From IMG/VR virus record IMGVR_UViG_3300045967_000229, positions 1 to 21,040 of that record: a stretch of 21,040 nt of DNA. One strand, given 5' to 3'. A program made the translations under genes and the position numbers. The stretch comes from a virus. The notes below the pieces were generated by a model. It was not told the DNA's origin and ran no database searches. It saw only the letters and a program-made list of their open reading frames with translations. Shown in pieces: positions 5,372-15,110 of the stretch (position 1 is its first letter; every line of letters starts with the position of its first letter).

Positions 5372-5607
5372 TCGACGGCCGCCGTCTGGCGGTAGCGACG
5401 GAAGCCGGCGGGGAATGGGTTGTGCTCGGCCTGGTCGAGCATCCAGCGCAGGTGGCCGCCGGGGTAGGTGTCGGCGATGACCTGGCAGCCCTTGCCGTCG
5501 ACGTTGGCCGGGTGCTGGGCACGCATCCCGCTGCGCGTCACGACCGGCTCGGCGAGGCTGCCCACAGGGATGGGCTCGCGGCAACGGACGCAGACCGGCT
5601 CAGTCAC
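5368..5607 (-). CDS. 79-aa protein with N-terminal zinc-knuckle motif
   Basis: A GTG start at 5607, with GGAGGA just upstream inside the preceding gene, overlaps its stop by GTGA. The product begins TEPVCVRCREPIPVG, a CxxC knuckle, followed by QHPANVDGKGCQVIADTYPGG with a further His and Cys that could complete one zinc site. The C-terminus is basic and aromatic (FPAGFRRYRQ). It lies between the replication candidate and the VRR-NUC nuclease. Small zinc-binding proteins of this kind are common in phage replication operons, but their roles are mostly unknown. Confidence 0.65.
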   Translation of the reverse strand: MTEPVCVRCREPIPVGSLAEPVVTRSGMRAQHPANVDGKGCQVIADTYPGGHLRWMLDQAEHNPFPAGFRRYRQTAAVE

Positions 5608-6164
5608 ACCGTTCCTCCGAGTCGTTCGATCGTCGACTCGATGCCTGCCCGGAGGTCGGGGTCGTTCGTTTCGTCGAGGGTGACGCGCAGCTCGGCGATC
5701 CGCTCCTCGTCGGTTGGCTGCTTTAGCCGAGAAGGGTGCGTCGATTGGGCATGGCCGTTGCCCGCGCGCGGTTCTGTAGTCCTAGCACCTTCACGTATCT
5801 CTGTCTGGTCTATGTATGGTTTGGTAGGCATCGATTTCGCATTGCCGGTCGCATTGCCGTCCGCATTGCCCCACCTGATGCGTGCCGCATTGCGGGCCGC
5901 ATTGCTCTGCGCATTGCGCTGCGCATCGAGCCCGCGGACCCGGTAGCGGTGGTGGGGGAGGATGTCGACCAACTCGGCGTCGACCAGTTTCTGCAGCGCC
6001 GTGCGACTGACACCCTGCGGCAGTTCGGCCGGTGAGGGCCAGAGCTTGTCGGCCCTGGCGAGCAGGCGCAGCCAGGTGGCCAGCGAGCGATCGTCGGACC
6101 AGATCGCGTCGTAGTTGGCGACGAGGTCCTCGTGGAAAACGCGGACGAAGGAGCCCTCGGCCAT
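5604..6164 (-). CDS. Phage replication initiator candidate with embedded repeats
   Basis: The ATG at 6164 shares a base with the upstream stop (TGATG). The 186-aa product has an N-terminal winged-helix-like domain (about residues 1-80: FVRVFHEDLVANYDAIWSDD, then SLATWLRLLARADKLWPSPAELPQGVSRTALQKLVDAELVD). A linker follows at residues 80-110, made of repeated N-A units every four residues, and then a charged C-terminal helix (DEERIAELRVTLDETNDPDL). This domain order recalls phage replisome organisers, in which an origin-binding domain is joined to a helicase-loader contact region. The linker DNA is a phased repeat array that may be the origin itself. The replication role is inferred from layout and operon position; a transcription regulator is the alternative. 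Confidence 0.65.
   Translation of the reverse strand: MAEGSFVRVFHEDLVANYDAIWSDDRSLATWLRLLARADKLWPSPAELPQGVSRTALQKLVDAELVDILPHHRYRVRGLDAQRNAQSNAARNAARIRWGNADGNATGNAKSMPTKPYIDQTEIREGARTTEPRAGNGHAQSTHPSRLKQPTDEERIAELRVTLDETNDPDLRAGIESTIERLGGTV
5838..5928. repeat. Iteron-like array, 12-bp phase, candidate replication origin
   Basis: The 8-mer CGCATTGC occurs exactly at 5838, 5850, 5862, 5886, 5898 and 5910. A degenerate unit (CGCATCG) follows at 5922, and a poorly matching unit fills the 5874 slot, so all are in one 12-bp phase. On the coding strand each unit reads NGC AAT GCG. Both Asn and Ala codons are fixed although this genome otherwise prefers AAC. The flanking 5771-5837 is only about 46% GC by count, an easily melted stretch beside the array. 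This is the arrangement of the lambda origin inside gene O. Confidence 0.65.
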
Positions 6165-10137: not shown

Positions 10138-10762
10138 TCCGCGCGATTTCGGTGGTCAGGTCGCCGGGCGTGCCGGTCTTGGTGGCGGTCACGACGAGGC
10201 CGATGTCGGTCGCTGCCGTGGCAGCGTCGACCGAAGTGTCGACCAGGGCGCGCCAGAGGTTGCTCGAGCCGCTGTCAATACTGACCGTGCCGATGTCGGT
10301 CAGGGTCGTCCCATCGGCGTCGCGGATGCGCAGCGTCAGTACCCACTTGTGGGAGCCGCTGAGCGCGGAGCCGCCGCTGGCGACGAAGAACTCGGCGAAG
10401 AAGTCCTCGACCCAGATGCTCTCCAGCAGCGGCCAGGCACCTGGATTGCCCGTCGCGCTCATCGGCTCGGCGACGGTGCCGACGCGACGGATGGTGGCGG
10501 TGTATTGGCTGAGCGTCAGCCAGCGCGTGCCGTCGTAGAAGAACTGCAGGTGCAGGTCGGTGCGGTAGAACAGGTCACCCGACGATGGCCCGCCGGGGAA
10601 CGACGTGCCGCCCGCCATGCCGCTCGCGAAGGCGTCACCGTCGATCCAGTAGGGTTCGGTGCCATCGTCGGACAGCACGGGAGTCGTCAGCCCGACAGGT
10701 TCGGCAACGCGCGTCTTCTGGCCGTTCGTCTTGACGACGATGACGGCCTTCTCGCTACCCAC
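10112..10762 (-). CDS. Tail fibre / receptor-binding candidate (216 aa)
   Basis: A GTG at 10762 overlaps the end of the 898-aa gene by 8 nt. The N-terminal third has the short motif GDLFYRTDLHLQFFYDGTRW, common in tail fibre proteins as a small beta module with a surface aromatic patch. The C-terminal part is beta-rich (HKWVLTLRIRDADGTTLTDI, then GLVVTATKTGTPGDLTTEI). It is the last gene of the leftward tail operon, a usual place for host-range proteins. No enzymatic motif is seen. An assembly or decorating tail protein is the alternative. Confidence 0.65.
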   Translation of the reverse strand: MGSEKAVIVVKTNGQKTRVAEPVGLTTPVLSDDGTEPYWIDGDAFASGMAGGTSFPGGPSSGDLFYRTDLHLQFFYDGTRWLTLSQYTATIRRVGTVAEPMSATGNPGAWPLLESIWVEDFFAEFFVASGGSALSGSHKWVLTLRIRDADGTTLTDIGTVSIDSGSSNLWRALVDTSVDAATAATDIGLVVTATKTGTPGDLTTEIARINYRLIAT

Positions 10763-13451
10763 GGGGCATCTTCGCTATCCAGCCGTTGACACCGCTGATG
10801 GTGTTGCCCTCGAAGCTGGTGCCGTCAGCCGCGCCGCAGGCCCACAGGCACGGTCCCATCATCTCCATCCCGATAACCTGGCTGCCCGCGTTGCCGCCGG
10901 TCGTGGTGAACTCGCGCCGGTCCAAGCGTTCGCCGAACTCGGGGTCGAGTTTGTAGATGACGCCCGTGCTGCCGTCCGTCCAGTCCGCCGGCCCTTCGTA
11001 GCCGCAGACGAAGACGGCATCGGCGAAGGCGAGGACGGTCTGCCCGATGCCGGTGGCGCTGCCCCACGACGCCCGTGACGGCCAGCGGTAGTCGTACAGG
11101 GCGTTGAGATCCAAGTCCCATAGCTCCGTGCCGTCGCTGTCGTACCGGGTCAGCACATTGCCCTGCAGCAGATAGATGGTGTAGTCGTCGGCGACGGCCC
11201 AGTCCTGAATGTCGACGTAGAAGCCGTCCATTGTCACCGAGTCCTCTAGGCCCGGCGTCCGCGAGTAACGTTCCAGCACGGCGTTGTCGCTGTTGTTCCA
11301 GTCGCCCTGGTCGAGAAAGACGTGCTGGCGGTTCGGCGTCGGGCGCAGGTTGTAGGACTCGCGGGTGAGGGTCGCCTCGGCCTCCTCGGTGCCGTCCGTC
11401 ATGTCGCGCCGTTCCAGCGTGGCCCCGCCGATGATGTCGAGGCGTGAGATTTCTACGGTGTAGGCGGTGGCGCAGTAGATCGAGAAGCCGTCCGTCCACG
11501 AGCCGGCGCCCGACTCGTCGCCCGACTCGGCCTCTACGTCCCACGTCGACGGCTCGCTGCCGGCGCTGGCCCAGATGCGGGCGCGCGAGTAGCCGCCCAC
11601 GGCAGAGGGCACGCGCTCCCAGCGTACCGAGTAGTTGGTGGCGGTGGTCAGGGTGACGGCGGCCGACTGCTGAACGTCGGTGTCCGTTTGAATTTCCAGA
11701 ATGAACTTGCCATCGCTCGCGCGCTGATTGATCGAGAAGTAGGTGTCCTCGGCGTCGAGCTGGTAGCTGAACTGGCAGATACGGTCAGCGTTGGAGCCGA
11801 AGGTAAAGCGCAGGTCGGTCAGCAGCAGCGTGCAGGCGTTTCCCTGGTCCCACGGCTTGCCCGAACCTCGCAGCGTTTTCTCGCCATCCGTGCCGCCGAC
11901 GTACTCGAAGTTGGCCGAGTCGGCGCGGATGGTGGCGCCACCGCTGACTGCTCCGGCGTCGTTATCGGCGATGTTGTTCGGACCCTTCCATGCCTCGCCG
12001 GTATCGGTCGTGCCGAGTTCGGGGCTGGTCGTGGTCCGGGTGAAAGTGTCTGTGACGAGGGCCTGCGTGAAGTTGACCAGCCACGCCTTGCGGATGTCCA
12101 TGACCTTGCCAGCGGTGATGGCCGCCGAGATGGTCCAGCGGTCATCGCCGAAGGCGCCCACCGTGCCGACGTACAGCGCCGCGTCGCCGTTCATCAGCGC
12201 CTCGTAGACCGGCTCGTGGTCGATGTAGTTCAGGTCGTGGTTACCGGGCGTGGCCTCCGCGACGAGGGTGACGCTGCAGTCGTACTTAGCCAGGTCGGCG
12301 CCATCGAACGCGAACATATGGCCGCGCCCTTCGGCCAGGCTGATGTTCTCGTCCATGCCCGAGGGCAGGATGGCGACGGTGCGCGTGCAGTCGGTACAGT
12401 CCTTCACCGTCTGCGTCTGGCGTGACACGTCACGGCGCGGGATGCACGCCAGCCGATCGGAGAAGCGCACGTCGCAGCGGTAGCCCCAGGTGTAGTCGGC
12501 GGCGGATGGCGGGAAGGGCGTGACGGTGGTGCTGTTGATGATGAAGTCCACGCCGGCCGACAGGTCAGCGTGGGCCGGGTCGGTGATGTTGACAGTGGTG
12601 CCCGGCAGCAGGCCGGCGCGGAACGTGACCAGCCGACCCGACTGCGCCACCGCACCGATGCGCTCGAGTTCCACTTCGCCGAGGAAGGTGAGGTCGGCCA
12701 GCAGTTTCGTGTCGTTGGCCTGTAGGCTGCGTGCGCGCTGGCCGCTGGTGGGCTCAGCCGGCACCCAGGCGTTGGTCCCGTCGCCCTGCACCCACACGGC
12801 GTCGATGTCGGCGTCGGTTCGGTCGTAGTCGAGGTTGAAGTCGCGGAACGAGTAGGAGTCCGGCGCTGACGGCGCATCCACGTCGAGGTCGAACGCGGCT
12901 GGGATGTTCAGGTCGGCGTTGTAGAACTGCAGTTCCTTGTCGAAGTCGACGTAGAACACCGCCGCCAGCAGGCCCGCCACCTGCGCCAGCGCCTCGCGCC
13001 GGCTCAGGCCGCTGTAGTCGAACGGGCCTACCGTGCCACCGAAGGCAGCCACGCCGCCGGTCGTGATGCCGAAGTCCTCGCCCTGGCTGAATATCCAGGT
13101 GATGCGGTCGTTCGGGTCCTCGGTCGTGTTCCGCGCCGCCGTGATGATCGTGTCGTCCAGCCGCGCCGTGAAGTCGCGGCCCTGGTACTCCCAGAAGGGC
13201 GTGTTGCCCTCGAACTGGGTCAGCGTCTTGACGCTGATGTCCCCCGCGCTGACGGTGACGTAGTTGGTGTTGTCGTCGGCGAACTCGAACTTGTATTCGT
13301 CGCCCTCATCAAAGGCGTCGGCGGTGCAGGAGAAGACGGCCGTCGCCAGCTCGCACGGCTGCTGATTGGTCAGCGACACCGTTTCGAGCATCACGTCGCC
13401 GGTCTTGTTGGCGTTGGCCTGCGTGACGTTGATGACCCGCCAGACGCCCAC
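10755..13451 (-). CDS. Tail hub fused to LamG-like and propeller-like modules (898 aa)
   Basis: A GTG at 13451 directly follows the tape-measure stop, with AGGTAG upstream. Residues about 1-335 look like a baseplate hub/Tal: after a beta region comes SGLSRREALAQVAGLLAAVF, then YVDFDKELQFYNADLNIP. Residues 350-460 include a CxxC (DCTDCTRT) and beta strands. Residues 468-675 resemble a concanavalin/LamG sandwich (DTFTRTTTSPELGTTDTG ... YTVEISRLDIIGGATLERRD). From about 700 to the end, repeated WxxDGT-like strands (VLTRYDSDGTELWDLDLN, GVIYKLDPEFGERLDRREF) resemble a beta-propeller. The module order suggests a tail tip that docks to the tail and binds cell-surface carbohydrate. No separate Dit gene is visible between tape measure and hub. 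Confidence 0.75.
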   Translation of the reverse strand: MGVWRVINVTQANANKTGDVMLETVSLTNQQPCELATAVFSCTADAFDEGDEYKFEFADDNTNYVTVSAGDISVKTLTQFEGNTPFWEYQGRDFTARLDDTIITAARNTTEDPNDRITWIFSQGEDFGITTGGVAAFGGTVGPFDYSGLSRREALAQVAGLLAAVFYVDFDKELQFYNADLNIPAAFDLDVDAPSAPDSYSFRDFNLDYDRTDADIDAVWVQGDGTNAWVPAEPTSGQRARSLQANDTKLLADLTFLGEVELERIGAVAQSGRLVTFRAGLLPGTTVNITDPAHADLSAGVDFIINSTTVTPFPPSAADYTWGYRCDVRFSDRLACIPRRDVSRQTQTVKDCTDCTRTVAILPSGMDENISLAEGRGHMFAFDGADLAKYDCSVTLVAEATPGNHDLNYIDHEPVYEALMNGDAALYVGTVGAFGDDRWTISAAITAGKVMDIRKAWLVNFTQALVTDTFTRTTTSPELGTTDTGEAWKGPNNIADNDAGAVSGGATIRADSANFEYVGGTDGEKTLRGSGKPWDQGNACTLLLTDLRFTFGSNADRICQFSYQLDAEDTYFSINQRASDGKFILEIQTDTDVQQSAAVTLTTATNYSVRWERVPSAVGGYSRARIWASAGSEPSTWDVEAESGDESGAGSWTDGFSIYCATAYTVEISRLDIIGGATLERRDMTDGTEEAEATLTRESYNLRPTPNRQHVFLDQGDWNNSDNAVLERYSRTPGLEDSVTMDGFYVDIQDWAVADDYTIYLLQGNVLTRYDSDGTELWDLDLNALYDYRWPSRASWGSATGIGQTVLAFADAVFVCGYEGPADWTDGSTGVIYKLDPEFGERLDRREFTTTGGNAGSQVIGMEMMGPCLWACGAADGTSFEGNTISGVNGWIAKMPRG

Positions 13452-15110
13452 CTAGCGCGCTACCTGCCAGCCCGCGCCTCTCACACCCTGGCGCACGGCC
13501 TGCTCAATGTCAGCGTGCAGCGCACGCAGGCCGGCGGGGCCCATGTAGCTGCCGTTGATGTTGATCGTGATCCCGCCGCCACCCCATGCCGAGGGCGAAG
13601 CCGTGGGCACGGATGGCAGGATGCGCCCGTTCTGATTGGGCACGAATAGCTCGGGCTGCTTCTCACCGACGATGTACGACTGACCGGCCTGGACCGGCCC
13701 GCCATGCTGGCGGTTGCCGCCGCTGGTCGGGCCGGGGTTGGCGATGTTCCGCAGGATGCGATCCAAGGAAGCGCGCCGCAGTCGGTCTTTGTAGCCCTCG
13801 ACAAAGGCGTTGGCGGCGATCTGGCCCCACGTGAACGCCCGACCCGCCAGCAGCTCCCATTGGTCGATGAGGATGTTGCGGGTGGCGATCGCGGCGCCGC
13901 GAAGAGCAGGGTCGCTCGAGTTGAGCCCCTCAGCGAGCATGGCGCCTGTCAGTTCACCCGCGATGCGTGCGAGCTCGGCCTGACGCTCCTCCTCGTGGGT
14001 CATGATGTATGTCAAGTCCTTCATCGCGTCCTCGACGAAGTCCTTGTTGCCCTCGATGGCATCAGCCACGGTGCCCGGCAGGTTCGCCCCCTCGCGCTCA
14101 GCCTGTGCCGTCGCCTTCTCGAGCTCGTCCGTGATGCCTTGCCAAAGTTTCTCCGACGCGGCGCGGATTTCCGGCGCGGTGTTGACGATTTTTTCCTTCG
14201 TGTGGTCGAGCCCGTCGTCTATGTTGGTGACCCAGTGCCGGCGGAAGTAGTCGGTATCGTCGGCGGTGTCCACCAACGTCTCGCCGACCGCCTTCAGGCC
14301 GTCGCGCATGTTCGCCATCGGCTCGGTGTTGGTGGTCTTCTGATGCAGCAGTTCGAGCGCGTCAAACGCGCCCATCGTGACGGTCACGCCCTCGGCCAGC
14401 GCCTCGTTGAACTTCAGTTGTGCCGGGGCGAGTTTCGCGCCGACGATCTCCTGCTGCTCGTCCAGCTTGGCGTTCGTCTTGTCCAGTTGGCCCGCGTAGG
14501 TCTGCGAGTAGGCGATGGCCTGCCCAGTCGCCACTTTCTGCACTTCCGCCAGTGCTTCCTCGCTGCTGGCGAACTCCTTGACCTCGATGCCAAGCTCACC
14601 CAGCAGCCGGTAGCGCCCGCCTTCGACCTTGATGAGCGCGGTGGAGGCCGCCTCGAGGCTGATGCCCTTGAGCCGCGCGAGGTCTTGCGCGGTGTGCATG
14701 ATCTTGAGCGCCGACGTGACATCGCCCGTGGCGGCGACCACGCGCGCCAGACTCAGCTCAAACTCGTCATCCTGAAAGCCGAGTTCGCGCGTCTTGTCGG
14801 TGGCTTCCTTGATTTCGGTCGAGTAGCCCTGCCATCCCGTGACGTTGGCGTCGAGCGAGGTCGTGAGCTTGGCGGTGGCGACCTCCTGCTCCTTGAACGC
14901 CTCGATTGAGTCGCCCATGAAGTCGGTGACGGCGCCGGAGGCCCGACCGATCAGCCCGATGGTGCTGATGCCGAAGGCTGCGCCGAGGCCGACCTGGAAG
15001 CCGCTGAGCTGGCCCTTGGCACTCTGGGCCGCCGTGCCGATGCCCTTGATGTCGGCTGCGGTCTGCTTGGCGTTCGGCGCGGACGTGCGGATGGTGACGC
15101 TGTTAGCCAT
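13452..15110 (-). CDS. Tail tape measure protein
   Basis: The 552-aa product begins at an ATG sharing a base with the upstream stop (TGATG). It has a hydrophobic N-terminal stretch (GLGAAFGISTIGLIGRASG, about 40-58), a long helical region (TSLDANVTGWQGYSTEIKEA, then LEEVQK-like and KATAQAEREGANLP), and the typical tape measure end HGGPVQAGQSYIVGEKQPELFVP. Tape measures fix tail length; at about 1.5 angstrom per residue this predicts a tail of roughly 80 nm. It is short for a siphophage and shows no lytic domain. It follows the chaperone candidate and precedes the hub gene, the normal order. Confidence 0.9.
   Translation of the reverse strand: MANSVTIRTSAPNAKQTAADIKGIGTAAQSAKGQLSGFQVGLGAAFGISTIGLIGRASGAVTDFMGDSIEAFKEQEVATAKLTTSLDANVTGWQGYSTEIKEATDKTRELGFQDDEFELSLARVVAATGDVTSALKIMHTAQDLARLKGISLEAASTALIKVEGGRYRLLGELGIEVKEFASSEEALAEVQKVATGQAIAYSQTYAGQLDKTNAKLDEQQEIVGAKLAPAQLKFNEALAEGVTVTMGAFDALELLHQKTTNTEPMANMRDGLKAVGETLVDTADDTDYFRRHWVTNIDDGLDHTKEKIVNTAPEIRAASEKLWQGITDELEKATAQAEREGANLPGTVADAIEGNKDFVEDAMKDLTYIMTHEEERQAELARIAGELTGAMLAEGLNSSDPALRGAAIATRNILIDQWELLAGRAFTWGQIAANAFVEGYKDRLRRASLDRILRNIANPGPTSGGNRQHGGPVQAGQSYIVGEKQPELFVPNQNGRILPSVPTASPSAWGGGGITININGSYMGPAGLRALHADIEQAVRQGVRGAGWQVAR

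Follow-up and report, generated by a model that had tools for sequence, protein, structure and literature searches.

Comparison with known origins inside initiator genes

In lambda O/ori, iterons and a weak AT-rich stretch that follows them lie inside the initiator gene (PMC7466680). The lambda iterons sit in the linker-coding part of the gene, after the N-terminal DNA-binding domain, and the helicase-loader gene comes next. RepA_N initiators (pSK41, pTZ2162 and PLE RepA) bind semi-palindromic direct-repeat iterons with their N-terminal domain (PMC7145576). Several RepA_N plasmids are also known to have the origin inside rep. Origins inside initiator genes are, as such, known already.

Here, we describe an array of short repeats in the window, i.e., the whole 21,040-base IMG/VR virus record IMGVR_UViG_3300045967_000229, which belongs to a tailed phage. 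We consider it likely (probability around 0.8) that these repeats are replication-origin iterons within the phage's own initiator gene, similar to lambda O/ori, with binding and origin function being inferred. This reading rests on the helicase and loader neighbours found in relatives and on the lambda-like order, iterons first and then a weak stretch.

The window is similar to lambda and to the lambdoid Stx phages P27 and 933W, as all have repeats inside a gene, which in the window is an initiator gene only by analogy with relatives, and an AT-rich part 3' of them. However, the lambda iterons are longer (about 19 bp, as is generally known) and few (4-6), while here a 7-bp core is repeated at 11-12 bp spacing. 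The GCAATGC iteron is, unlike in lambda, common to initiators without a detectable common N-terminal domain. Further, lambda O/ori has an adjoining loader, while the gene downstream of the window array gene encodes a VRR-NUC nuclease and searches with window genes recognised neither a helicase nor a helicase loader; many relatives do have a helicase or loader. Neither Pfam nor PHROGs relates the window protein to phage replication protein O, and Pfam gives no RepA_N domain for it. The PLE iterons lie in a non-coding region and the RepA_N half-sites are longer and placed around a poly-A centre, both unlike the window. The RW-type DUF1376 (PF07120) genes, in contrast, share the GCAATGC array and the weak stretch of the window, and DUF1376 genes adjoin DnaC/DnaB-type genes. 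Rac YdaU, which is also a DUF1376 protein, has neither the RW motif nor an array, unlike the window. No description of the GCAATGC iteron, or of DUF1376/YdaU as an origin carrier, was found in the open-access literature searched. As far as that literature goes, a short iteron common to dissimilar initiator families and tied to a short helical motif appears to be new.

The array gene and the phage around it

The array lies in a probable replication initiator gene of 186 aa on the minus strand (5604..6164, ATG at 6164, the stop ending at 5604). The protein matches no database family, and its role as an initiator is inferred by analogy with relatives. It consists of an N-terminal domain, the motif AARIRW, an Asn-Ala linker that encodes the iterons, a low-complexity linker and a helical C-terminal tail. 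The N-terminal domain, about residues 1-85 (5912..6164, minus strand), is presumed to bind DNA; the evidence for it is homology to L353. The AARIRW codons (5871..5888, minus strand) form a motif of the [KR]A[KR]xAAxxRW type, identified by sequence and profile comparison, which breaks the 12-bp grid of the array.

Only one relative of the window protein is convincing. The protein L054/L353 (IMGVR_UViG_3300047160_001493) is 40% identical to it over the N-terminal 121 residues and has its own 12-bp GCAATGC array, in which both spacers and linker residues differ from those of the window. The window protein itself has no Pfam, PHROG or PDB match, and compared with PF07120 it gives no match above the Pfam cut-off. 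As sole query it found nothing in IMG/VR, phages or plasmids, and the alignment of the window protein and L054 found no further convincing kin in IMG/VR. The L054 protein as sole query gave only its self-match plus chance matches. In a search of 396 genomes of one phylum, three candidates (L270-L272) were rejected as kin of the window family, as the matches looked spurious. The AlphaFold model of the window protein, built from a two-row alignment, is uninformative (pLDDT 52.8).

The right part of the record contains capsid, head-tail and tail genes, while a tyrosine integrase, RecT, a YqaJ exonuclease, the VRR-NUC nuclease and an HTH regulator are found around the array gene. No switch in GC skew is seen at 5.8 kb of the record. 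In the tail-gene region, a reading frame of 898 aa (10755-13451, minus strand) matches nothing in Pfam or PHROGs, and the neighbouring 13452-15110 is similar to tape measure proteins.

Six candidate iterons in helical phase

The window array consists of six copies of CGCATTGC, starting at 5838, 5850, 5862, 5886, 5898 and 5910 on a 12-bp grid with one slot skipped, and no further copy exists elsewhere among the 21,040 bases of the record. The skipped slot, 5874, is no copy; it is taken up by codons for the conserved ...AARIRW segment. In coding-strand order, iterons 1 to 6 are exact copies of GCAATGC on the minus strand at 5911..5917, 5899..5905, 5887..5893, 5863..5869, 5851..5857 and 5839..5845. 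One period before iteron 1 there is a degenerate half-copy (5922..5929, minus strand; CGCATCGA / TCGATGCG, matching at 6/8 positions, codons GAT GCG), and the leading GATGCT half-copies of DUF1376 arrays resemble it. The original prediction had proposed the six positions in a strict 12-bp phase, which held exactly, and the degenerate copy at 5922, which held as well.

Each copy is NGC AAT GCG when read on the coding strand, i.e., the Asn of the array is always AAT and the next Ala always GCG. In 11 other genes of the record, AAT makes up 9% of the Asn codons (AAC 91%) and GCG 33% of the Ala codons, and the remaining three Asn of the window gene are all AAC. The claim that these codons go against the preference of the genome was therefore confirmed by the codon counts. 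The residue preceding the Asn is R, S or G; these are chemically different and have only the NGC codon form in common. As all of them are spelled NGC, the invariant element is GCAATGC.

Given the peptide and the codon usage of the record, the probability of six GCAATGC heptamers is 2.4e-8, and that of six 8-mers including the GCG is 3e-11. In 20,000 synonymous simulations of the window gene, the maximum GCANTGC count was 4, compared with 6 observed. A dinucleotide-shuffle null for the 8-mer is weak because phase and codons are ignored, and the codon-usage simulation was used in its place.

Recurrence of the arrays in IMG/VR

GCAATGC arrays with 11- or 12-bp spacing are found in well over a hundred IMG/VR contigs. 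The counts are lower bounds, and there is some redundancy among the IMG/VR sequences. A run of three GCAATGC spaced by 12 bp is present in 79 stretches, where base counting gives a chance expectation well below 1. At 49 of these 79 loci a [KR]..A..RW motif is present shortly upstream in an open frame, and a looser form of the motif is present at 54. The 11-bp spacing occurs in at least 120 stretches, with the motif upstream in 51 of the 80 that were fetched. With a spacing of 11 bp the reading frame shifts at each copy, and in the 11-bp arrays with the motif the first copy is in frame 0, 1 or 2 in 31, 11 and 9 cases, respectively.

The synonymous control GCAACGC at 12-bp spacing was found in 45 stretches, all ordinary low-complexity repeats and none (0/45) in the context of the motif (Fisher 6e-14 for the AAT against AAC contrast). 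A control spacing of 15 bp gave 41 stretches, eight of them with the motif, all being variants of one type (QREKANRRW...GNAAPGNAA). Arrays at 15 bp exist, but they are rare. The QREKANRRW type with 15-bp GCAATGC (GNAAPGNAAPGNAA) was seen at L502, L503, L506, L513, L520, L522, L524 and L532. When genome contigs were scanned at 12-bp spacing, 15/80 passed a loose RW test, several of these spuriously, and most matches lay outside the motif context; the DNA pattern alone is therefore not specific in chromosomes.

The arrays occur in DUF1376, in Lin1244_N and in families without Pfam names, such as that of the window. Their usual site is constant, directly behind the [KR]A[KR]xAAxxRW motif with which a small N-terminal domain, predicted to be a winged helix, of phage replication-type proteins closes; the consensus of the motif was taken from 78 distinct proteins. 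We define GCAATGC-iteron / AAxxRW initiators here as genes with at least three GCANTGC at 11-12 bp spacing beside [KR]..A..xRW, and the window meets this definition. An hhalign comparison of the window family with DUF1376 gives an alignment confined to the AAxxRW motif and the NA repeats, with no N-terminal similarity detectable by profile comparison. The AlphaFold model of an RW-type DUF1376 protein (pLDDT 80.8) shows a winged-helix-like domain and then one long C-terminal helix ending at ARW. Foldseek with this model returned weak winged-helix matches, none with E <= 0.001.

The neighbours of the array genes are often replication genes. By Pfam, a DnaB-type helicase follows directly in at least 14/72; by PHROGs, the next ORF is a primase/helicase in 18, and in a few more it is a DnaC-like loader or a DnaA-like ATPase. 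The Plectonema/Leptolyngbya phages Lbo240-yong2 and Lbo-JY16 have two copies and then a replicative helicase, and Leeuwenhoekiella phage vB_LaeS_Arctus_1 has two copies followed by a 'DNA replication protein'.

Arrays in DUF1376 genes selected by protein domain

DUF1376 genes were collected by alignment of the N-terminal domain only, which avoids choosing them by the repeat, giving 72 distinct genes. Within 420 nt past the domain, 42/61 genes with the RW motif contain at least two GCANTGC, compared with 0/10 intact genes without it (Fisher 4e-5, not corrected for gene relatedness). In the 45 codons after RW of 44 nonredundant genes there are 96 GCANTGC, while 16.7 +/- 3.4 are expected from their own codon usage. 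The maximum in 500 simulations of these genes was 30, and the observed number exceeds the expectation in all three frames.

The iteron consensus in the relatives is (A/G)AGCAATGC(T/C), with A at position -1 in 87% of the copies, in any frame. Adjacent copies are separated by 11 (27 cases), 12 (17) or 22-24 (23) bp and never by 9, 15 or 18, with single outliers at 34 and 143; the spacings correspond to one or two helical turns. In 19 of the 61 RW-type genes fewer than two exact GCANTGC are present, and many of these have diverged copies as judged by eye, as do some RW genes whose motif takes the variant form KAGA..AR(W/Y) or GKQGA.KRW. No array was found in the non-RW DUF1376 genes of E. coli, Pseudomonas and Rhizobium phages, including YdaU of the E. 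coli Rac (pro)phage, nor in Lin1244_N genes without the motif.

Some genes in these families carry other repeats. The DUF1376 genes L335, L337 and L348, whose motif is GKQGA.K(R/K)W, appear to contain a different 12-bp repeat, ATGGCAAAYGC, which could possibly be an iteron of altered specificity. Other repetitive linkers (NPVNQPINEVNQSIN and LTGVQTNV) follow the domain in the Lin1244_N genes L356 and L372 and in the non-RW DUF1376 genes L249/L254/L257, and it is conceivable that they represent further iteron types.

One DNA repeat read in three frames

Each of the three frames is used for reading this one DNA repeat, giving SNA, AMxT or TQC/KQC, and the repeat occurs in either orientation. The xNA frame is used by most 12-bp arrays, and most loci read SNAP. 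In L028, L037 and L080, the array is instead read as AMPQ/AML/AMPT, and in L081 the odd palindrome has the opposite orientation and gives SALQPALQ. The peptide NAMRTQCDGNA consists of three iterons read in three different frames. Further, the arrays are not always confined to the coding region. In L051 and L080 the array runs on past the stop codon. The genes of L020 and L062 end shortly after the RW motif, and there the array follows the stop.

Due to these frame changes and the copies past stop codons, neither protein-level selection nor drift of a duplicated peptide can explain the arrays. It is the DNA, rather than the protein, that is conserved at the array.

A weak stretch 3' of the iterons

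On the coding strand, the iterons are directly followed on their 3' side by a candidate DNA-unwinding element (5771..5837, no strand assigned), for which melting is inferred. Its GC content is 44.8%, the lowest of any 67-nt window in the record. Using published nearest-neighbour values, the least stable DNA of the region is a 60-nt stretch located +40 nt from the last iteron (z = +4.2). Averaged over 41 DUF1376-type genes, the least stable 60-nt stretch is likewise centred 40 nt past the last iteron.

In the DUF1376 genes (L273-L352) a (CCTTCA)n tract is found behind the iterons. It encodes the peptide PSPSPS with fixed codons (ACCnTCA, 92 observed vs 6 expected), and it is possible that this tract is a second origin element, either an unwinding or a loading site. 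Elsewhere, the simple-sequence linkers KESKVKES, TDRQTDRQ and EEKRREEK come after arrays. The weak stretch of the window contains one ACCTTCAC on the plus strand (5788-5797), which is the unit of the (CCTTCA)n tract on the opposite strand to that tract and may be due to chance.

Several claims of the original prediction can be judged from these comparisons. The low GC of 5771-5837, given as about 46%, held, with 44.8% as the recomputed value. Selection at the DNA level is supported by the P of 2.4e-8, by the absence of an AAC version and by the frame changes. Homologs that keep Asn-Ala and vary the codons freely would have refuted it, and the opposite was found, with AAC in 0/45 and AAT in 49/79 stretches in context. 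In the proposed comparison of relatives, the DNA is kept while the peptide changes, in three frames and beyond stop codons. Iterons beside a melting region are supported as the weak 3' stretch recurs in the 41 DUF1376-type genes. The lambda O/ori design is supported too, while the replication role, the binding of the repeats and the start site remain inference.

A possible mechanism

We suggest that the array could work as follows. The iteron is an odd palindrome with the core GCA-N-TGC, in its compact form AGCAATGCY, and a spacing of one helical turn (11 or 12 bp) would place all iterons on the same face of the helix. The initiator would contact the iterons through its N-terminal domain plus, by inference, the AAxxRW helix that follows. 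That the RW motif reads the iteron is inferred from their co-occurrence. Strain from the bound initiators would then open 5771-5837, the weak stretch, where a helicase would be loaded; in many relatives a helicase is encoded by the next gene, and in the window phage it is presumably that of the host. Binding by the encoded protein, melting and the start of replication at this site are all inferred, as there are no binding, footprint or coverage data.

Alternative explanations

The array could be an operator for its own operon, bound by the encoded protein or by a repressor, with the origin located elsewhere. Short palindromic sites in helical phase would also fit a regulator, the DUF1376 model predicts a winged-helix-type domain and there is no direct mapping of the origin. 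However, the sites are several hundred bases inside the gene and not at a promoter, the weak stretch recurs directly 3' of them, the neighbours are helicases and loaders, and the arrangement matches lambda O/ori (PMC7466680), so we regard an operator as unlikely. It is similarly improbable that a conserved host factor, and not the encoded protein, binds the iterons and that the linker is just a tolerant carrier. In favour of it, one heptamer is found with N-terminal domains that lack detectable mutual similarity, and heptamer loci come from many bacterial phyla, although their context is mostly unchecked. Against it, the arrays within DUF1376 track the AAxxRW motif (42/61 vs 0/10), and the non-RW DUF1376 and motif-less Lin1244_N genes are without arrays. 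To our knowledge, there is no conserved host protein with a GCAATGC site.

Two further explanations do not involve a DNA-binding site. A disordered Asn-Ala linker (SNA/RNA/GNA) might be selected as a peptide, for which the xNA frame of most 12-bp arrays speaks. However, AAC arrays are absent in context even though AAC makes up 91% of the Asn codons in the record, and the repeat is kept as AMPT, QAML and TQC and past stop codons. For the family as a whole the frame changes refute this explanation, and we can practically rule it out; it could survive only as a variant special to the window. Neutral tandem duplication, i.e., a minisatellite with identical codons from recent copying, would fit the 12-bp tandem layout and the two short arrays that TRF reports in the window. 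This is contradicted already, as the 4-nt spacers of the window all differ while eight positions are invariant, and as the core and the helical spacing recur across unrelated genes, with 11 and 12 bp mixed. We therefore find it the least credible of these alternatives next to peptide selection, and retain replication-origin iterons inside the initiator gene as the preferred reading.

Implications

For most phages that are known from metagenomes alone, it is not known where the origin lies, and a single short signal that does not depend on the reading frame, together with the motif, would locate both origins and initiators by sequence in many phage groups. It would also explain why proteins without a known function, DUF1376 among them, contain puzzling SNAPSNAP or NAMRTQCDGNA repeats, and it presents a clean case of selection on DNA dictating protein sequence. 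Further, RW and non-RW initiators differ in carrying the repeats, which offers a direct test of the evolution of origin specificity.

A bolder reading, which we are at this point equally ready to accept or to reject, is that GCANTGC at a spacing of one turn is a code read by a small portable [KR]A[KR]xAAxxRW helix that has been joined to several unrelated N-terminal domains in phages of many phyla, i.e., a modular and very widespread system. If this were true, SNAPSNAP and NAMRTQCDGNA would be mere by-products of translating an origin, and the sequence could by itself suffice to find most origins of this kind.
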